Below, in pieces: positions 2,887-20,542 of a stretch of DNA of 20,542 nucleotides (position 1 is its first letter; each line of letters starts with the position of its first letter). The DNA is taken from positions 1 through 20,542 of IMG/VR virus record IMGVR_UViG_3300042525_000208, one strand, 5' to 3'. The notes under the pieces are model-generated. The model searched no databases, was not told the origin of the DNA, and saw nothing but the letters and a program-made list of their open reading frames with translations. The position numbers and the translations under genes were made by a program. Source of the DNA: a virus.

Positions 2887-2917
2887 AGACGCTGCTATTC
2901 TTAGTAGCGTCTTTTTT
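2887..2917 (+). terminator. Intrinsic terminator of the + strand operon
   Basis: Perfect 11-bp stem with one G-T wobble: AGACGCTGCTA (2887-2897), loop TTCT, TAGTAGCGTCT (2902-2912), followed by a run of six T (2912-2917). It lies 26 bases after the last + strand gene. This is a classic Rho-independent terminator. Confidence 0.92.
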
Positions 2918-13067: not shown

Positions 13068-15281
13068 TTATCCATAAGTTTCTAAAATCTCTCCTGCTCC
13101 ACTAATTCTGTAAGCTTGGAAGTAAGTGTCTGTTACTAATACCTTCCACCAAATATTAGCACCATTAAATCCTACATTTAACAAGTCATTTGTATAGAAG
13201 AAATCACCAATACTTGGCACTCCTATATCTTCAAGATATATCAAATTACTTGTTAAAGGAGCTGCATAAGCTAATTCCTTAGTTAAATAACCATTTGACC
13301 TAAAGTGACCATAGCCTGTTTCAGCAGTTGATAATTTATTGCTATCATATATAGTAGTCATTGTTGTAGATACATTATTAGGGTTTACCTCTAGTAAAGT
13401 AGCTGCTATAACATCATTAGGCAAGTCTATAGTAGAATTGCCAATTATATATCTCTTGTCGTTAACGCTAATTTGTGCAGGGTCGGTATCTATAGCCCTA
13501 ATAGGCATAGCACCACTAAATCTACCTTCTGATGTTTGCATACCCATAAATGCAGCATCTAGATTTATTATGTTTTTATTTAAGCAGTTTGAGTATTGTT
13601 TTACAACTAACTCACTTAGGCTTCTATATATATCTGTTGGGTATTCCTGTCTGTACCAATTTTTTAAGTTTAAACCAGCCGAATCACTTAAAAATCCCTT
13701 GTAGCTATACTTGCCATCATTTATGTCATTAAAGCCCATTGGTAGGTCTATTTCAAGCACATATTCATTATTGTTAGTAATATAGCTTTCTGTTGTTAGG
13801 CTGATAAAGGTGGACTGTAAATCAATTTTAAAATTACTTACATCTGCACCTGCAATGGTAGATTTCCAATAAGGAGCTGAATTGTCACATAAAATAAGCT
13901 CTACTACAAGTTGACCAGTTACAGGGCAAACAGGAGTTGTTACGTTTACATTAGCTTTTGGGTCAGCAGGATTAAAAGCCTCAAAATAATAGTGATCTCC
14001 TGTGTTAACTGCTTCTTTCCATGCTTTATTATTATCTAAGAAATAAGAAGGACCTGTTGCAGGATTAACTTGTACTTTTAATATAAACAATGCGTCTGGA
14101 CCACCAGCAGGAGTACCTAAACCTACTATGTCAAATGATATGTTAAAAGTATCACTTGAGTTAAGATTTGGTAGATTATTAGGAGATACTGAAACGTAAT
14201 AAGGATTAACTGTTAAATCATGGCTTAAAATAAAAGAATTATACTTTCTTTCAGGATATGGCTTTATGTAATTAGTGCCACCATTCCTAACTTGTGTCCA
14301 TCCAAAAGCATTGCTTACTGTTGGTGAAACATATTCATATATTTTTAAGTCCCAATTCGTAGCATAGTTTGTAGGGTTTTCAATAGTCTTGTTAAATCTA
14401 ATTTTGTTATAACCTTTTCTAATTAACTTAAATTGACTATTATCTACAAAATATAATCCTGTATCATTTCCTGAATATCCTTCAATAATACCTTTTACAT
14501 CAAATACGTCATTACCGCTTATTGTTCCATCACTATTATAAATAGTAACATAATAAGATTCTTGTGCAAACTGAGTTAAAGATACTATATGCCAATTACC
14601 ATTAGCCTGAAACAATCTTGCTCCAAAGCTTTTAGTTAACATAGTTAAAATCTCTAAACAGTTTAATGTTTCTTGTTTGTCATTAACTATTGTAGCATAA
14701 TTTATATATGTTTGGTCTAATGGATCAGCGTTTAAATTGCCTGTTCTATTAGTCATCCCTTCGGCATAAAAACTTATACCGCTTATAATATCATAATCTA
14801 ATGGGTATTCTAACTCTAATAAACAATCCTTTATAAAGGTCATTGCTTTTTGTACTTGTGTTAAGTATATAGTGTTAGGTAAATTGTACTTAATTCTTTC
14901 TAGCATACCCAAACCATCTATAGCACTAAAAGACAGTTCTTTTCTACCAGTGTTAAATAAAAACTGTACATCATCACTTATAGACCATCCTTGAAAATCT
15001 GTAATACCGCCTGATACAACCTTAACAAAATACTTTCTGTCATTTAGAGTTGTAAAGTTTGGCATATTTTCTATATTATCAGTAACGTCAATAGACACAT
15101 TTAATTGGCTAACATAAATAGGCTCAAACGTATCATCACTATTAGGTATATATTCTAATTGTAGACCTGTAGCTTGATATTCTATAGTGCTGCCAACATA
15201 TCCATCTTCGTAAAGATAAACTGTACTACTAACATTACTTTTACTAGCTGTATTTATTATATATTTTACTGCGTATGCCAT
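13068..15281 (-). CDS. Tail hub / baseplate-type structural protein (737 aa)
   Basis: Directly follows the tape measure (one-base TAATG overlap), the position of distal-tail and hub proteins in siphoviruses. The N-terminal 150 residues are beta-rich (STIEYQATGLQLEY, VSQLNVSIDVTD, ELSFSAIDGLGMLERI). Next comes a mixed region with CLEILTMLTKSFGARLFQAN and NWHIVSLTQF, resembling the hub region where proteins of this kind discuss a 'domain plus ring' layout. A carbohydrate-binding-like beta sandwich may lie at about 290-490, and the last third contains WYRQEYPTDIYRSLSELVVK and a C-terminal beta stretch. I recall similar large proteins after tape measures in Bacteroidota phages annotated only as tail proteins. 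The hub assignment rests mainly on gene order. Confidence 0.7.
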   Translation of the reverse strand: MAYAVKYIINTASKSNVSSTVYLYEDGYVGSTIEYQATGLQLEYIPNSDDTFEPIYVSQLNVSIDVTDNIENMPNFTTLNDRKYFVKVVSGGITDFQGWSISDDVQFLFNTGRKELSFSAIDGLGMLERIKYNLPNTIYLTQVQKAMTFIKDCLLELEYPLDYDIISGISFYAEGMTNRTGNLNADPLDQTYINYATIVNDKQETLNCLEILTMLTKSFGARLFQANGNWHIVSLTQFAQESYYVTIYNSDGTISGNDVFDVKGIIEGYSGNDTGLYFVDNSQFKLIRKGYNKIRFNKTIENPTNYATNWDLKIYEYVSPTVSNAFGWTQVRNGGTNYIKPYPERKYNSFILSHDLTVNPYYVSVSPNNLPNLNSSDTFNISFDIVGLGTPAGGPDALFILKVQVNPATGPSYFLDNNKAWKEAVNTGDHYYFEAFNPADPKANVNVTTPVCPVTGQLVVELILCDNSAPYWKSTIAGADVSNFKIDLQSTFISLTTESYITNNNEYVLEIDLPMGFNDINDGKYSYKGFLSDSAGLNLKNWYRQEYPTDIYRSLSELVVKQYSNCLNKNIINLDAAFMGMQTSEGRFSGAMPIRAIDTDPAQISVNDKRYIIGNSTIDLPNDVIAATLLEVNPNNVSTTMTTIYDSNKLSTAETGYGHFRSNGYLTKELAYAAPLTSNLIYLEDIGVPSIGDFFYTNDLLNVGFNGANIWWKVLVTDTYFQAYRISGAGEILETYG

Positions 15282-17491
15282 TACCCTCTTCTAATATTTA
15301 ATGATGAATTAGACCTTTGCATAGCCAAAACTAAGTCTTGTCCTCTTAATACAAACTGACCATTTCCACCACCACCAATCAAATCTTTTAATTTATCTAA
15401 AGGTGCTATAACCTCAGGGTTATTTTGTGCACCTGGATATTCACCCATTAGACCCATAGTAGGTCCTGATACAATACCGCCATTAGCAAATGCCGTAGGA
15501 TCAACAGCAGATTGCTTAAGTCTATTCTTAATTATAGTACCTAAAGCAACAGCTCCAACACCAGCAGCAATAGCTACAAAAGGATCAGGTGATGCAAAAG
15601 CTATTTGTAATAATGTTCCATATTGTATTAACATTTTACCAATGTTAATTAAAGCGTCAGCAAGTAATTTTTGGAAATGTTCAAGAGGCTTTACTTCGCC
15701 ACCACTTAATGCGTTACCTATATTTTCGCCTAAAGTTGTAAATGAATCAGCTAAAAATCCTGATATAATACCACTTATTCCTTGAGCAGTAGCTTGAAAT
15801 GTATCACCCAAAGATTCTATCTTGTTGTTCATTTCATCTATTTCCTTGTCTACTGCTGCAACTTGCGTAGGTAATCCAAGTAATTCTAACTTAGCTTTTT
15901 CTTCTTGTAATTTCTTTAAGGCATCTTTATAATCTTTTATTTGTAGATTAATGTTATTTCTATCTAATCTTAATCTTACCTTTAAAGCATCTTGTATTTT
16001 TTTAATTTCAGCAGAAGTCATGTTTTGATTTATCCTATCAATGGCATCTGCGATATTTTCTCTATTTTGTATTATTAACTTACCAATTTGAATTTCTTTG
16101 TCTAATTCTTTTTTTAGTAAATCTTCTTTTAAGTTGTACGTTTGTTTATATAAGTCAGCTATAGTATTTTGATAAAAGGACTCTTCAATAATCCCTTGAT
16201 TGTACCAAGCTACTAAATCAGCCATTGCTTTCTGAAGTAGTTGTACCTTTTTTAAATCATTGCCCTCTGCATAAGCCAACTGATTATCTAAATTATCTTT
16301 AAATAATCTTTGTTCTTCTTCTAAAGCTTTAAGAAAATCTTTTGCATAAGTGTCTTTTGGCTCAGGCTTGTCTTTACCTCCTCCACCACCAGGCAATAAA
16401 CCTGCTACAAATGTCTTTTGTAATTCAAGAATTTTGCTTTTTACTTTTTCAACAGCACTAGCTGCATTAAGAACAACTTGTTCTTGATTCATCCATTGTC
16501 TATCGGCTTCATTTGTATATGTTTTTGTAGCTAAAGATGTTACATCAATTTCTTTACTTAATGTTTGATAATTTAGTATACCATCTTTTACTACAGTTTC
16601 AGATGCTTTAGCTGTTTTTTTAGCTTGTCCAGCTAATTCCTTTTCTTTATCTAAAACCTTTACTAATGCAACATATTCATCTTTATAAGCAGCAATAAGA
16701 GCCTGATTAAGCATTGCTTCTGTAACCTTCTTAATTGCTTCTTCTGATTTGCCTGTTTTTATAGTATTTTCATCTAACTTTATACCATAATCTTTAAGAA
16801 CCTTATTTACTTCATTAATTGCATTCTTTCTTTGTAAATCAGTAGAGTTTGCATCTCTTGCTATTTTAACATAATTTGTAAGCAATAATTCGTTAGCGTA
16901 ATAATCATTTTTAGAATCGCCTAAAGCTTTATTTAAATCTTCTTGTGATTGCTTTAATTCATCAGTAGTTTTTTTAGCTTTAAACATACCCATATCCCAA
17001 GCTGTAATAACAGCTATAAGAGCAGATATACCTAAATATATAGGACCAGTCATTTTAGCAAACCCACCAGCAACGGCAGGAAGGTTATTTTGAATACCTC
17101 TAAATCCAAATGGCAAATCCTGTATAACTAACGCAAGGTTAGTCCATTGTATATTATTTTTTCGTAAAGAGCCTGTAGTAGCATCTATCCCAGCAGATGT
17201 TGGCATTGATGCAGTCATTTTCTTAAAACTAGCACTAGCTGGGTCTATTCCATTTGCAACCAAAGACTGAAAGTCTTTTTGAAGTTTATTAGCAGCAGCT
17301 CCTGCTTGTTGTGATGCAGGACCAAATAACTTAATAGCAGCCTCTAGATTTTTAGCGTTCTTTTGAATGTTATTAGCAATTTTTTGGAACTCTTTATCAG
17401 TACCATTAAACTGACCAATCATTTGATATAACGCATCATTAACCCCTTGAAAATCGAGGTTTAGTTTTAAGTCTACTTGATTATCTGCCAT
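15281..17491 (-). CDS. Tail tape measure protein (736 aa)
   Basis: Sets tail length and is ejected with the DNA. It has the typical make-up: helical charged N-terminus (1-115), a hydrophobic segment at about 150-166 (IYLGISALIAVITAW), a long coiled-coil middle (about 170-570, including DKEIDEMNNKIESLGDTFQ-like segments), a Gly/Ala-rich hydrophobic part near 620-660 (FVAIAAGVGAVALGTI) and the family-typical C-terminal GGIVSGPTMGLMGEYPGA...PEVIAPLDKL. At the usual 0.15 nm per residue, 736 residues predict a tail near 110 nm. It follows the frameshifted chaperone pair and overlaps the hub gene by one base. Confidence 0.92.
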   Translation of the reverse strand: MADNQVDLKLNLDFQGVNDALYQMIGQFNGTDKEFQKIANNIQKNAKNLEAAIKLFGPASQQAGAAANKLQKDFQSLVANGIDPASASFKKMTASMPTSAGIDATTGSLRKNNIQWTNLALVIQDLPFGFRGIQNNLPAVAGGFAKMTGPIYLGISALIAVITAWDMGMFKAKKTTDELKQSQEDLNKALGDSKNDYYANELLLTNYVKIARDANSTDLQRKNAINEVNKVLKDYGIKLDENTIKTGKSEEAIKKVTEAMLNQALIAAYKDEYVALVKVLDKEKELAGQAKKTAKASETVVKDGILNYQTLSKEIDVTSLATKTYTNEADRQWMNQEQVVLNAASAVEKVKSKILELQKTFVAGLLPGGGGGKDKPEPKDTYAKDFLKALEEEQRLFKDNLDNQLAYAEGNDLKKVQLLQKAMADLVAWYNQGIIEESFYQNTIADLYKQTYNLKEDLLKKELDKEIQIGKLIIQNRENIADAIDRINQNMTSAEIKKIQDALKVRLRLDRNNINLQIKDYKDALKKLQEEKAKLELLGLPTQVAAVDKEIDEMNNKIESLGDTFQATAQGISGIISGFLADSFTTLGENIGNALSGGEVKPLEHFQKLLADALINIGKMLIQYGTLLQIAFASPDPFVAIAAGVGAVALGTIIKNRLKQSAVDPTAFANGGIVSGPTMGLMGEYPGAQNNPEVIAPLDKLKDLIGGGGNGQFVLRGQDLVLAMQRSNSSLNIRRG

Positions 17492-17495
17492 TATC

Positions 17496-17777
17496 CTATT
17501 TCTTTATATTATCGTATTTTTTTAAGACCTCTTTAAGTTCCTCAGGTGTCATTACCCTCTGTTTTACAAAGTTACGATTATCGCAGTCAAGTGGTAAAAG
17601 CTCATGTGGCTTTATCTTTTTCCCTTTTGGAAGTTGTATATTTAACAAAATAGAAGTTTGCCACCTTGCTCTTAACCATTCTTGTTCTTCTTTATGACGG
17701 TAACCATACCAAATAAAATCTAACTCAGCCATCGTCATATCCCAAAACAAATGGGGAAGCACTTGGCACTCCCCCAT
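17496..17777 (-). CDS. Tail assembly chaperone, downstream frame (T-like part, 93 aa from its ATG)
   Basis: This is the second part of the chaperone pair that coats the tape measure during tail assembly. Visible core: LPHLFWDMTMAELDFIWYGY and HKEEQEWLRARWQ, a helix rich in aromatic residues common in chaperones of this position, and a C-terminal helix TPEELKEVLKKYD. The frame is open upstream of the ATG: reading on from the A9 run of the previous gene in the -1 frame gives KLEWIDIERYTMGECQ, joining the two ORFs without a break. The fusion would be 226 aa (122 + 104). The ATG at 17777 sits inside a strong hairpin and has no good leader, so separate initiation looks unlikely. It lies between major tail protein and tape measure genes, exactly where lambda-type G/GT frameshifts occur. 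Confidence 0.85.
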   Translation of the reverse strand: MGECQVLPHLFWDMTMAELDFIWYGYRHKEEQEWLRARWQTSILLNIQLPKGKKIKPHELLPLDCDNRNFVKQRVMTPEELKEVLKKYDNIKK

Positions 17778-17778
17778 T
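17750..17778 (-). promoter_or_regulatory. 10-bp RNA hairpin covering the ATG of the downstream chaperone ORF
   Basis: In the mRNA, AAUGGGGGAG (17778-17769) pairs with CUUCCCCAUU (17759-17750) around a nine-base loop, giving ten pairs with one G-U. This is a very stable stem in such AT-rich DNA. It includes the only ATG of the downstream ORF and starts 31 bases after the slippery site, farther than the usual 5-9 bases of a classical frameshift stimulator. It could prevent internal initiation so that the downstream part is made only as a fusion, or slow ribosomes at a distance. Confidence 0.65.
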
Positions 17779-17803
17779 GTATATCTTTCAATATCAATCC
17801 ACT

Positions 17804-18175
17804 CTAATTTTTTTTTACAGCGTCTTTATTAGCTTTTTTGTTAGTAGGTTGTTCAACACCACTATTCATGCTTTCTGCTAAAGAAGCCATAACATCTTGG
17901 AACTTCTTACTACCTAATCCACCCATATCATCAATCCAATCACATACTTCAATATCTGTAAAGCTTGGAGTTATTCCTTGACTATACAATGGATATTCTG
18001 CCGCAGCTTTTAGCAAATTAGTAATCGCATCTAATGATTGATTACCTGATAATGCTTCCGATATGTCCGATGGTCCAATGCCTTGAAGTTGACAGAATCT
18101 TTTTAAAGACCATGTACAAAACCTCATAGGTATTTTAGTCCCATCACTTAGGGATAGTTCGTAATGTCCTCTCAT
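17804..18175 (-). CDS. Tail assembly chaperone, upstream frame (G-like part, 123 aa)
   Basis: First chaperone ORF after the major tail protein gene. It is a soluble helical protein (TWSLKRFCQLQGIGPSDISE, AITNLLKAAAEYPLYSQG, VCDWIDDMGGLGSKKFQDVM) with a Lys/Asn-rich flexible tail ending KKANKDAVKKN. The N-terminus RGHYELSLSDGTKIPMRFCT, followed by a helical domain, fits the common layout of such chaperones in Bacteroidota and other siphoviruses. The last codons contain the slippery A9 run; most ribosomes should stop at TAG, a minority should shift -1 into the next ORF. Role in tape-measure folding and tail-tube assembly is inferred from family and order. Confidence 0.85.
   Translation of the reverse strand: MRGHYELSLSDGTKIPMRFCTWSLKRFCQLQGIGPSDISEALSGNQSLDAITNLLKAAAEYPLYSQGITPSFTDIEVCDWIDDMGGLGSKKFQDVMASLAESMNSGVEQPTNKKANKDAVKKN
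17810..17816 (-). promoter_or_regulatory. Probable -1 programmed frameshift site A AAA AAA
   Basis: The 3' end of the upstream chaperone gene reads GTA AAA AAA AAT TAG within a run of nine A (17816-17808). The heptamer A AAA AAA fits the X XXY YYZ slippery pattern in the zero frame; a -1 slip continues AAA TTA GAG TGG straight into the downstream ORF, two codons before the zero-frame stop would end translation. The position between chaperone ORFs upstream of the tape measure is the conserved place for this event in long-tailed phages. Confidence 0.85.
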
Positions 18176-18196
18176 ATTTTGGTGTTTTTGGTGTTA

Positions 18197-18631
18197 TTAT
18201 GCGTTAGTAGCCTGAGTTAATTGACCTTGTCCTGTAAAAGAAGCAGAGTAAGTAACTGGAGACTCCATGTCAGCAGTAATATCTAAGCTTTCTACAAATG
18301 CAGAACCAGACCAAATTAAGTCACCTACGATTGGAGTGCTACCGTTAACTGTAGTAAACTTAACTGTAACTACACCTCTACCATTTAAAGCAGAGAAAAT
18401 ATCTCCTACTACATAGTTTGTACCTGTTGGTTCAACTGTAGTAAGACCATCTGTAGTTAAAGACCAAGAACGCAAACCTGCGATTTGATCAGCCCATCCA
18501 CCACTTGATTTAGTTGTTGCATCTGGTAAGTCAGCACTTACAGATAAAGAGCAAGATGTAGAATGAGCTACAACTTCAGTTCCTACTAGAACTACTAGGT
18601 TTGTACCATTAAAAATTCCTGTTGTTGGCAT
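18197..18631 (-). CDS. Major tail (tube) protein (144 aa)
   Basis: Forms the stacked rings of the tail tube. The sequence is beta-rich: FNGTNLVVLVG (7-17), TSCSLSVSADLPDATTKSSG (25-44), GWADQIAGLRSWSLTTDGL (45-63), GVVTVKFTT (86-94) and VTYSASFTGQGQL (126-138). The W-ADQ-x-x-G-x-RSW-S-x-x-x-DG core is the usual signature of phage tail tube proteins of this size. It lies between the tail terminator-like and the tail chaperone genes, as expected. The 389-aa protein at 11883 is a divergent, expanded paralog. As a highly expressed protein it has its own A/T-rich leader (AAAATTAAAATAAA before the ATG). Confidence 0.88.
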   Translation of the reverse strand: MPTTGIFNGTNLVVLVGTEVVAHSTSCSLSVSADLPDATTKSSGGWADQIAGLRSWSLTTDGLTTVEPTGTNYVVGDIFSALNGRGVVTVKFTTVNGSTPIVGDLIWSGSAFVESLDITADMESPVTYSASFTGQGQLTQATNA

Positions 18632-18650
18632 TTTATTTTATTTTAATTTT

Positions 18651-19079
18651 TTATAATATTTGAGTTACAAAGTGATCCATTGTAATTACTCTTCTGAAAA
18701 CATAAGATTCGTCTACATAATCAAATGTAGCGATATTGCTTGTCATCTTACGAGTAACTATTTTAAAGTCAGGAGAAGCACTTGGGTAATCAGGTACATT
18801 AACGCCTATGATCTCTAACAATTCGTTAGCCCACTGGTCTACCGATTTCTGACCTACTTCACCTGACTTAAGAGTTCTATACACAACATCAAATTGAATA
18901 GTAACATCAAAGTTATAACTCTGTTTGTCGCTATTTTCTAAAGATGTTTGACTGCTTATGAGTAAAAACGGAGGCTCTACATCGTCAGGTGCAATAGTAT
19001 CGTAAACACCCAAAGAAAAACTCTCTGAGGCTAACTTATCTACATAAGCCTTTCTAATAGCTAATCCGCAATCTTTCAT
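18651..19079 (-). CDS. Tail terminator / tail completion-like protein (142 aa)
   Basis: Protein of the size and position of tail terminators that cap the tube and join it to the head. It has an N-terminal helix GLAIRKAYVDKLA, a strand after PPFLLISSQ, NFDVTIQFDVVYRTL, a helix around VDQWANELLEII and a C-terminal strand SYVFRRVITMDHFVTQI. The pattern recalls DUF3168/gpU-type tail completion proteins, though identity is not certain. The start overlaps the stop of the 50-aa gene by one base (TAATG). It directly precedes the major tail protein gene. Confidence 0.75.
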   Translation of the reverse strand: MKDCGLAIRKAYVDKLASESFSLGVYDTIAPDDVEPPFLLISSQTSLENSDKQSYNFDVTIQFDVVYRTLKSGEVGQKSVDQWANELLEIIGVNVPDYPSASPDFKIVTRKMTSNIATFDYVDESYVFRRVITMDHFVTQIL

Positions 19080-19231
19080 TAAGCTTCTGTTTCCTCTTTT
19101 ACTTCTTCAGGATTTTGCTCCTGAGCAAGTTTTGATAAGAACTGAGTTAAAGGTAAACCATACTTAGTTGGTAATTCTTGGATGAACGCATCTAATTGTT
19201 TTACCTGCTCTTCGTTTAGTGTAATTGTCAT
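19079..19231 (-). CDS. Small unknown protein in the head-tail module (50 aa)
   Basis: The ORF starts MTITLNEEQVKQLDAFIQEL and ends KEETEA. It is acidic and helical, with a predicted helix 6-19 and another at about 27-38 (LTQFLSKLAQEQ). It fills the 196-base space between the gp10-like gene and the tail-terminator-like gene, and its stop overlaps the next start by one base (TAATG), a coupling used several times in this operon. A TAAATTTG promoter-like site lies 15 bases ahead of its ATG. No family recognised. Confidence 0.78.
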   Translation of the reverse strand: MTITLNEEQVKQLDAFIQELPTKYGLPLTQFLSKLAQEQNPEEVKEETEA

Positions 19232-19246
19232 GGTATTAATTTTGTA

Positions 19247-19254
19247 CAAATTTA
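19247..19254 (-). promoter_or_regulatory. Bacteroidota-type -7 element TAAATTTG inside the late operon
   Basis: TAAATTTGTA on the - strand, identical over ten bases to the site at 3486-3477. It lies in the only noncoding gap of the head-tail module (44 bases between the gp10-like stop and the 50-aa start), and a start point about seven bases on would leave a short leader. No good TTG -33 element is seen upstream. It could add transcription of the tail genes, including the major tail protein. Confidence 0.55.
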
Positions 19255-19275
19255 GTGAAATATATTTATATAAGA

Positions 19276-19764
19276 TTACCTTACTTTATAGCTTTTTAAG
19301 GTTTTTAACAATGTTGCATATTTCTCATCAAAGGTCTTAAAGAAGAATGGTCTATTCGGCATATTGTAATTCCTTAATTTTGAACCTCTAAATTGTGAAG
19401 CAAAGCTATTCATTGGCTTTTTAAGGCTAAATTTATATTTAGGAATTCCAAATCCACCTCCTGTACCAAATTCAACATAAGGTGCATATTTAACTGTTTC
19501 ATTGCCCATAGAGAATGAGGCATACCCATTTTGATATGGAGTTGATGATACGCTTCTAGATAAATTACCAGTTCTTTTATATGGTTTTTTTGCTGTAGAA
19601 GGAACTCTAGGCAAGTTACCTGCTTTTGTTGTAGCTTCTATTTCCATAGCTTTTACAGCCTTATTAACTTCTTGTATAGCATAAGCCTTGTACAATTCTG
19701 CTGTTTGCTTATACTTATCTCTTATTTTAATTAAAGCCTTAGTATCTACTGTAAATGTAGCCAT
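19276..19764 (-). CDS. HK97 gp10-like head-tail / tail completion protein (162 aa)
   Basis: Family signature: RTGNLSRS (64-71) followed by KYAPYVEFGTGGG (92-104) and RPFFFKTF near 138-145; this is the classic HK97 gp10-like pattern with L-x-x-S, Y-x-x-x-V-E-x-G-T and RPF. An N-terminal helix (10-48, ALIKIRDKYKQTAELYKAYA) precedes it. It acts at the head-tail joint or tail completion. The start overlaps the stop of the head closure gene by one base (TAATG). It lies in the standard order connector, closure, gp10, terminator, tube. Confidence 0.88.
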   Translation of the reverse strand: MATFTVDTKALIKIRDKYKQTAELYKAYAIQEVNKAVKAMEIEATTKAGNLPRVPSTAKKPYKRTGNLSRSVSSTPYQNGYASFSMGNETVKYAPYVEFGTGGGFGIPKYKFSLKKPMNSFASQFRGSKLRNYNMPNRPFFFKTFDEKYATLLKTLKSYKVR

Positions 19765-20084
19765 TATTTAAGGGTTGAGCAACCTATTAAAAAATACTTA
19801 TTACGATCTTGTTCGTTTATGATAGAATTTATCATATATAACTTATTTTGGAATGTAATGGTCAACTTCTTATCAAATACTTTAGATGTTGTATATCTTA
19901 TTCTAAATGTAATATCAGCAGCAAAACCATCTGTACCAGCTATATTTGTTCTTGTGTTTGTGTCTGTAACAATCTCAGCCCAGCAAGTATAATAAGCTGC
20001 AAGGGTGTTTACAAAACCACCTGCACCGTCAGAAGCTCCAGTCTTACTATTAAAAGTAATCCTATTCATTAATCTTCCTATCAT
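19764..20084 (-). CDS. Head closure / head-tail joining protein (106 aa)
   Basis: Fits the SPP1 gp16-type (phage H-T-join) family: N-terminal GRLMNRITFNSKTGASDGAG with the R-I-T-F strand, DGAGGFVNT before the W-AE segment (YYTCWAEIVTD), ITFRIRYTTSKVFD, and KLYMINSIINEQDRNKYFLI near the end, the usual I-x-x-I-x-x-x-x-x-x-x-Y-L pattern. It forms the stopper between connector and tail. It is coupled by one-base overlaps to genes on both sides. Confidence 0.88.
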   Translation of the reverse strand: MIGRLMNRITFNSKTGASDGAGGFVNTLAAYYTCWAEIVTDTNTRTNIAGTDGFAADITFRIRYTTSKVFDKKLTITFQNKLYMINSIINEQDRNKYFLIGCSTLK

Positions 20085-20542
20085 TAGATAATTACATTTA
20101 TGCGTTTAAATGGCTTCATAAGCTCGTATGCGGTCATCAAATTAGCTGAAGGCTTAGTTGCTTCAACTGAAGATTCTCTGTACTCATATAGGTCTGAAAT
20201 CATCTTTAAAAGGGCAGTCTTCATTGTTGTAGGAGTAGTAGCGTAACCACAAGTGTAAGTAAATCTAAACTCGTTATCGAAAATGCTAGTCATGTAGACC
20301 TTTTTGGTTGTTTCACCAAGCACCTGGTAATCCCCAACAGACATTGCTACCCAAGCTGTGCTATCCCAGTATTCTACTACTGATATAGTGTTTGTAGGAG
20401 TGTAAGGTAACTCTATAAAGCTATCTACATAAGCTACAACTCTTAAAGTTCTAGGAGTCATTGCGACACCTGCATATTGCTCAAGTCTTGTTTGAGCTGT
20501 ATTGATTAAAGATGTAATCAAAGTATCATCTTCACTATAATC
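20084..20542 (-). CDS. Head-tail connector, gp6-like (C-terminal 152 aa; gene cut by right window edge)
   Basis: Adaptor ring protein between portal and head closure protein. The frame is open to the window edge and reads DYSEDDTLITSLINTAQTRL, a typical gp6/gp15-type N-terminal helix, so a TTG at 20521 sometimes chosen as a start is only an internal Leu codon. Other family features: EQYAGVAMTPRTL, FIELPYTP...ISVVEYWD, VGDYQVLG, FRFTYTCGYATTPTTMKTAL, and a C-terminal helix ending MKPFKRINVII. It begins the visible part of the head-tail module. Only a short N-terminal piece appears to be missing. Confidence 0.88.
   Translation of the reverse strand, partial: DYSEDDTLITSLINTAQTRLEQYAGVAMTPRTLRVVAYVDSFIELPYTPTNTISVVEYWDSTAWVAMSVGDYQVLGETTKKVYMTSIFDNEFRFTYTCGYATTPTTMKTALLKMISDLYEYRESSVEATKPSANLMTAYELMKPFKRINVII

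Follow-up and report, generated by a model that had tools for sequence, protein, structure and literature searches.

Gene order at the locus

The window analysed here is the whole IMG/VR virus record IMGVR_UViG_3300042525_000208, a metagenomic sequence of 20,542 bases. On its minus strand, a tail terminator-like gene is followed by the gene for the major tail protein, two small overlapping ORFs (ORF1 and ORF2) and a tape measure-like gene (Table 1). The preliminary description had placed the ORF pair between the genes for the major tail protein and the tape measure, which was borne out by Pfam and PHROG matches and by the gene order; in Cellulophaga phage phi39:1, the gene at the same place as our tape measure gene is annotated as tape measure. 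Two small overlapping ORFs between the tail tube and tape measure genes are the arrangement of the lambda G/GT type. The lambda genes for gpG and gpGT share this layout, including the second ORF at -1 and a slippery run ending the first. Unlike lambda, whose heptamer is GGGAAAG, the phage described here has a run of nine A's (A9) and an extra conserved hairpin over the ATG of ORF2.

Table 1. Features of the tail gene region, with positions in the 20,542-base window.
Feature	Position	Strand	Basis
Tail terminator-like gene	19079-18651	-	
Major tail (tube) protein gene	18197..18631	-	Pfam Phage_tail_2 37.9 bits (cutoff 23.8); phrog_1407 major tail protein 6.6e-25
ORF1, G-like tail assembly chaperone (putative), 123 aa	17804..18175	-	Position; predicted fold; weak 2ob9 match
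Nine-A slippery run (putative)	17808..17816	-	In-register heptamer A_AAA_AAA at 17816-17810
-1-frame codons KLEWIDIERYT, slip to ORF2 ATG	17778..17810	-	pN/pS; no upstream start codon
Zero-frame stop TAG of ORF1	17804..17806	-	Sequence, ORF list
ORF2, T-like domain (putative), 93 aa from ATG, 104 aa from slip	17496..17777	-	phrog_16333 3.9e-11 (unknown function); Phage_TAC_6 sub-cutoff
13-bp RNA hairpin with triloop, includes ORF2 ATG	17750..17778	-	Fold, codon freeze, pairing in relatives
U-rich tail TGTTTT after hairpin	17744..17749	-	Invariant in aligned relatives
Tape measure protein gene (putative), 736 aa	15281..17491	-	phrog_30292 2.6e-13 (unknown function); weak phrog_20660 tail length tape measure 0.0047; position and length

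We consider ORF1 and ORF2 to be a tail assembly chaperone pair of the lambda G/GT type, mainly on the grounds of gene order and recoding, with some support from the predicted fold. The predicted fold of ORF1 (pLDDT 81) matched uncharacterised viral proteins best; the best named match was a viral tail assembly chaperone (E 1.6e-4, TM 0.65), the others were at 4.7e-3 and weaker, and some of the weaker rows were named tail tube protein. Superposition of ORF1 on the HK97 chaperone 2ob9 gave a Z of 3.0 over 85 residues with an rmsd of 4.8, tied with unrelated proteins. Neither ORF had a significant match in the PDB by Foldseek or VIA-align, and the PDB sequence search with an ORF1 profile returned none. 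Likewise, the family searches run gave no sequence match to lambda proteins, and the Pfam and PHROG matches bearing on chaperone identity were below cut-off or unnamed. A nucleotide search of phages gave one short match, tblastn of ORF1 in phages found no match, and Rfam had no match anywhere in the window. A genome scan with an ORF2 profile yielded 43 stretches fitting a pattern, none of which encoded a relative.

A conserved slippery run ends ORF1

ORF1 ends GTA AAA AAA AAT TAG, within the nine-A run, and the -1 frame continues AAA TTA GAG TGG and on without a stop into ORF2, so that slippage is predicted to produce a fusion of 122 + 104 = 226 aa. Sequence and ORFs confirmed both parts of the preliminary description on this point. 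Its further argument from the register of the heptamer A_AAA_AAA stands as an observation but not as independent evidence, because any run of nine A's includes an A_AAA_AAA in register, regardless of frame, and the register therefore adds nothing beyond the run itself. The coding strand of the window has no other A-run of nine or more. Codon shuffles of the 11 minus-strand coding sequences (12.4 kb) gave an expectation of 0.69 such runs overall and about 0.0012 per 22-nt overlap. An A9 somewhere in the coding sequences is thus unremarkable by chance, whereas its conservation is far beyond chance.

Searches of viral contigs found 404 stretches related to ORF1 and 280 related to ORF2, of which the best 80 of each were taken. 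Since one contig can yield several overlapping locus ids, the counts that matter are those of distinct sequences. Within this first set, ORF2 is at -1 relative to ORF1 in 157/157 two-ORF loci, representing 53 distinct junctions. In wider scans covering 145 distinct ORF1-ORF2 DNAs, 144 have it at -1, and each of these contains GTAAAAAAAAATTAG. In the single exception (625 nt, compared with 671-698), the stop is read just before the run, which seems to reflect an indel upstream in ORF1. We also placed the search pattern only inside ORF2, to avoid selecting by the slip site. Among the 117 new loci thus obtained, two are cut off; the run is present in all 115 others, as A9 in 99 and as A10 in 16. 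The preliminary description had proposed a comparison of homologous phages as a check, and the run proved to be kept throughout: taken together, 193 distinct junctions have A9 (182) or A10 (11), each with the in-register A_AAA_AAA, and the distance from the end of the run to the ATG of ORF2 is always 30 nt. The ATG itself is retained in 193/193. An in-frame TAG directly after the run is also kept in relatives. None of the 193 has A_AAA_AAA replaced by A_AAA_AAG, the heptamer most familiar from E. coli dnaX. In the close family, the AAT at the end of the run is never AGT, though the resulting -1-frame codon AAG would be synonymous.

The 11 codons between the slip and the ATG (KLEWIDIERYT) evolve as protein-coding sequence in the -1 frame, with a pN/pS of 0.17 compared with 1.81 and 0.68 in the other two frames (22 distinct variants from 432 loci). 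None of the 22 variants has a -1-frame stop in this interval. Upstream of the ATG, no ATG, GTG or TTG occurs in the -1 frame in any of the 193 distinct junctions, the only near-start codons there being ATT, ATA and rare ATC. Protein constraint in the -1 frame without an upstream ATG, GTG or TTG indicates translation of these codons, which are most simply reached by slippage. With ORF2 extended back to the slip, its E value against phi39:1 improved from 3e-3 to 2e-4, at 26% over 95% of the lengthened ORF2, and the match goes upstream of the annotated start in that phage. The score for Phage_TAC_6 rose from 14.4 to 16.9 bits, both below the cutoff of 23.4, and the PHROG families were nearly unmoved (44.2 to 44.4 bits, with phrog_7377 slightly worse).

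Distant relatives

The run and the -1 relation extend to more distant relatives. Bacteroides phage F4, five loci in Bacteroidota MAGs (L440-L444) and two faecal phage contigs have an A9 with ORF2 at -1, i.e. 8/8, the run reading GAA AAA AAA AG in seven and GCA AAA AAA AAG in one. A ninth F4-type match (L445) has no such ORF1. The F4-type chaperone pairs of L440-L444, each with an A9, lie in MAG contigs and probably belong to prophages. The host phylum of our phage is assigned from such distant relatives only. The Bacteroides phages Bacuni F1/F2/F4 (MT806185 and relatives) resemble it in gene order, in the A9, in ORF2 at -1 and in having KLE right after the slip, but their run is in another codon phase (GAA AAA AAA AGT TAG), and F1/F2/F4-like relatives are without a comparable hairpin. 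As the preliminary description expected of standard annotation, F4 and phi39:1 each carry two separately annotated genes here, both for hypothetical proteins. The words frameshift, slippery and chaperone are absent from the main text of PMC8143477, which deals with the Bacuni phages.

Phi39:1 (gp19/gp20) likewise has a distant ORF2 homologue and an A run ending ORF1. However, the run is A8 and ORF2 is at +1/-2 (L241, 3880-3930) instead of A9 and -1, which would imply recoding in another direction; a switch in direction between related phages is possible. A relative of phi39:1 (L321) has ORF2 at -1 and no clear heptamer.

A hairpin over the ORF2 start codon

The ATG of ORF2 lies within a hairpin, AAUGGGGGAGUGC-CAA-GUGCUUCCCCAUU (17778-17750), with 13 pairs and -17.7 kcal/mol. 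It ranks second among 35-nt hairpins on the minus strand; the first, at 6594-6560 (-21.4 kcal/mol), is within the start of the ORF at 6638-6054. The hairpin folds in 190/190 distinct junctions of the family and is not found in phi39:1 or L321. In an alignment of 70 of 108 distinct 116-nt segments, picked for diversity, all 13 pairs form in 70/70 rows. Four pairs vary, three of them on one side without loss of pairing, and one by a compensatory change from C-G to U-A in 5 rows. Shuffles reached one pair with both sides changed in 197/500 cases and five such cells in 0/500. The covariation consists of few events and rests on one pair. The synonymous freeze, in contrast, is strong: mean synonymous homozygosity is 0.98 in and just after the hairpin compared with 0.62 beyond, and the codons CCC, GGG and TTG there are invariant in 193/193, although they make up 1%, 8% and 9% of the codons for their amino acids further on. 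Retention of G-U pairs points to selection on RNA, not on duplex DNA. The TTG at the foot of the hairpin (17750-17748), one of the three invariant codons, is accounted for by pairing at its first base only.

A lower stem (AAGAUA with UGUUUU) predicted by folding the single sequence was dropped, being absent from the alignment consensus; by eye, L383 and L324 break the pairing. No copies of the hairpin were seen elsewhere in the examined loci: the five other matches listed were this very site read on the opposite strand, and the count of such matches (432/868) is the number expected from opposite-strand reading.

The -1 recoding found here is of a known kind, that of lambda G/GT, and the new part is the hairpin together with the fixed A9/A10 run. 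To our knowledge, no RNA element was previously known at such a place. Among the papers listed by literature searches, judged by title and abstract opening, none dealt with a chaperone frameshift in Bacteroidota phages or with this hairpin.

Recoding and its mechanism

Gene order, the -1 relation, the slippery run and its conservation support the fused tail assembly chaperone proposed in the preliminary description, and from these sequence data we regard it as highly probable that the two ORFs are joined by -1 recoding, whichever machine slips. The conserved frameshift in the tail assembly chaperone genes of long-tailed phages was described by Xu, Hendrix and Duda in 2004 (via PMC5009743). Slippage of the ribosome on A_AAA_AAA would probably be the specific mechanism. 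We infer the slipping machine, the ratio of the products and their binding partners as follows. Most ribosomes would stop at the TAG to yield the 123-aa G-like protein, and a minority would slip back by one base, with two lysine tRNAs on A_AAA_AAA, to produce the 226-aa G-T fusion. If the analogy to lambda holds, the G part would coat the tape measure protein, with the T part recruiting the tail tube protein. The hairpin over the AUG at 17777 may help to prevent the making of a free T domain.

An alternative is that RNA polymerase slips on the nine A's, so that some mRNAs contain ten and are read into ORF2 by normal ribosomes. All 193 distinct junctions have 9 or 10 uninterrupted A's, a length typical of slippery homopolymers (8-9 or more), and 9 A's are present in 8/8 distant relatives despite the differing codon phase (GTA, GAA or GCA before AAA AAA), as if length outweighed the heptamer. 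The absence of AGT in the close family fits the same pattern, although the presence of a second heptamer, A_AAA_AAT, might alone account for the retention of AAT. A classic 3' stimulator is also missing. Stimulatory structures usually start 5-9 nt after the heptamer and in a minority 12-15 nt after it (PMC5009743); no structure starting at 5-9 nt was found, and the only conserved structure found, the hairpin, starts 31 nt after the heptamer and is thus no classic stimulator. Furthermore, A9 is a proven site of such slippage elsewhere, as in Yersinia tssM3 with 15-25% (PMC4256274) and in Thermus dnaX (PMC3711429); Citrobacter tssM1 has programmed transcriptional slippage at an A11 (PMC4256274; PMC3711429), and two genes of a chaperone cluster are reported with 6-7% frameshifting (PMC3711429). 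Thermus dnaX, Yersinia tssM3 and Citrobacter tssM1 share with our phage an uninterrupted run of about nine A's that shifts the frame, but they are bacterial genes. Against the polymerase, chaperone frameshifts of the lambda type are described as ribosomal (PMC5009743), and any A9 contains the ribosomal heptamer as well. We regard slippage by the polymerase as a less likely but serious alternative, and an A9 suits both machines.

That the two ORFs are ordinary genes, with ORF2 translated from the ATG at 17777 and coupled to the termination of ORF1, is very improbable. It would agree with the retention of the ATG in all 193 junctions and with the separate genes annotated for relatives in databases. 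However, the codons 5' of the ATG are under protein constraint in the -1 frame, and the ATG itself lies within the conserved 13-bp hairpin. In addition, 8/10 distant rows have a residue other than Met where Met17777 aligns, the exceptions being L446 and L447, and a start at the ATG would cut the first predicted helix of the extended ORF2 (residues 4-14, pLDDT about 90), in which Met17777 is residue 12. The preliminary description had named detection of the downstream protein only as a product beginning at this Met among the findings that would overturn the fusion, and the constraint on the upstream codons disfavours such a sole product. Homopolymers are error-prone and the window is one metagenomic record, but a sequencing or assembly artefact hiding a single frame is refuted in practice by independent assemblies and has a negligible probability, as the same length and frame relation occur in 193 distinct sequences from many contigs, and an in-frame TAG is retained directly after the run.

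With fusion by -1 recoding, a large uncultured group would join the phages that are expected to make a chaperone fusion missed by annotation, and by relation the same is expected of (pro)phages of Bacteroides, Alistipes and other Bacteroidales. The fixed A9/A10 run makes it possible to ask cleanly which of the two, RNA polymerase or ribosome, slips in phage tail modules.

Possible roles of the hairpin

As an RNA element, the hairpin is under strong selection and can be tested directly. Our guess is that it buries the internal AUG, attenuates transcription, or both. In the second case, the hairpin and its U-rich tail would act as a partial intrinsic terminator: ribosomes halting at the TAG would leave the hairpin free, and RNA polymerase would often stop before the tape measure gene, whereas frameshifted ribosomes would cover the hairpin and transcription would continue. 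This is compatible with either route to the fusion. The hairpin begins 28 nt downstream of the TAG, counted from the first base of that codon, and has the most base pairs (13) among the terminator-scan sites in 15000-20542; its tail is invariant, the otherwise rare TTG codon included, and a low-copy tape measure gene would follow a high-copy tail tube gene if the copy numbers are as in lambda. On the other hand, the terminator scan as a whole found about as many sites as chance (3 versus 2.2 expected), and no such element was seen in the F4-like relatives. We consider attenuation a tentative and somewhat unlikely role.

It is more doubtful still, indeed improbable, that slip site and hairpin form one two-part device. 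Ribosomes stopped at the TAG would then end short of the hairpin, which would stay folded, hide the AUG of ORF2 and dampen transcription of the tape measure gene, and frame-shifted ribosomes would open it. If this were true, the frequency of frameshifting would set both the G:GT ratio and the amount of tape measure protein.

As a candidate intrinsic terminator, the hairpin has a stem of -17.7 kcal/mol, and its tail, TGTTTTGGGA, is poor compared with likely real terminators at the ends of gene blocks in the same window, which have TTTTT (2887-2912, plus strand) and TTTT (3040-3016, minus strand). These two good terminator-like hairpins with T-runs lie face to face at the boundary between the plus- and minus-strand gene blocks.
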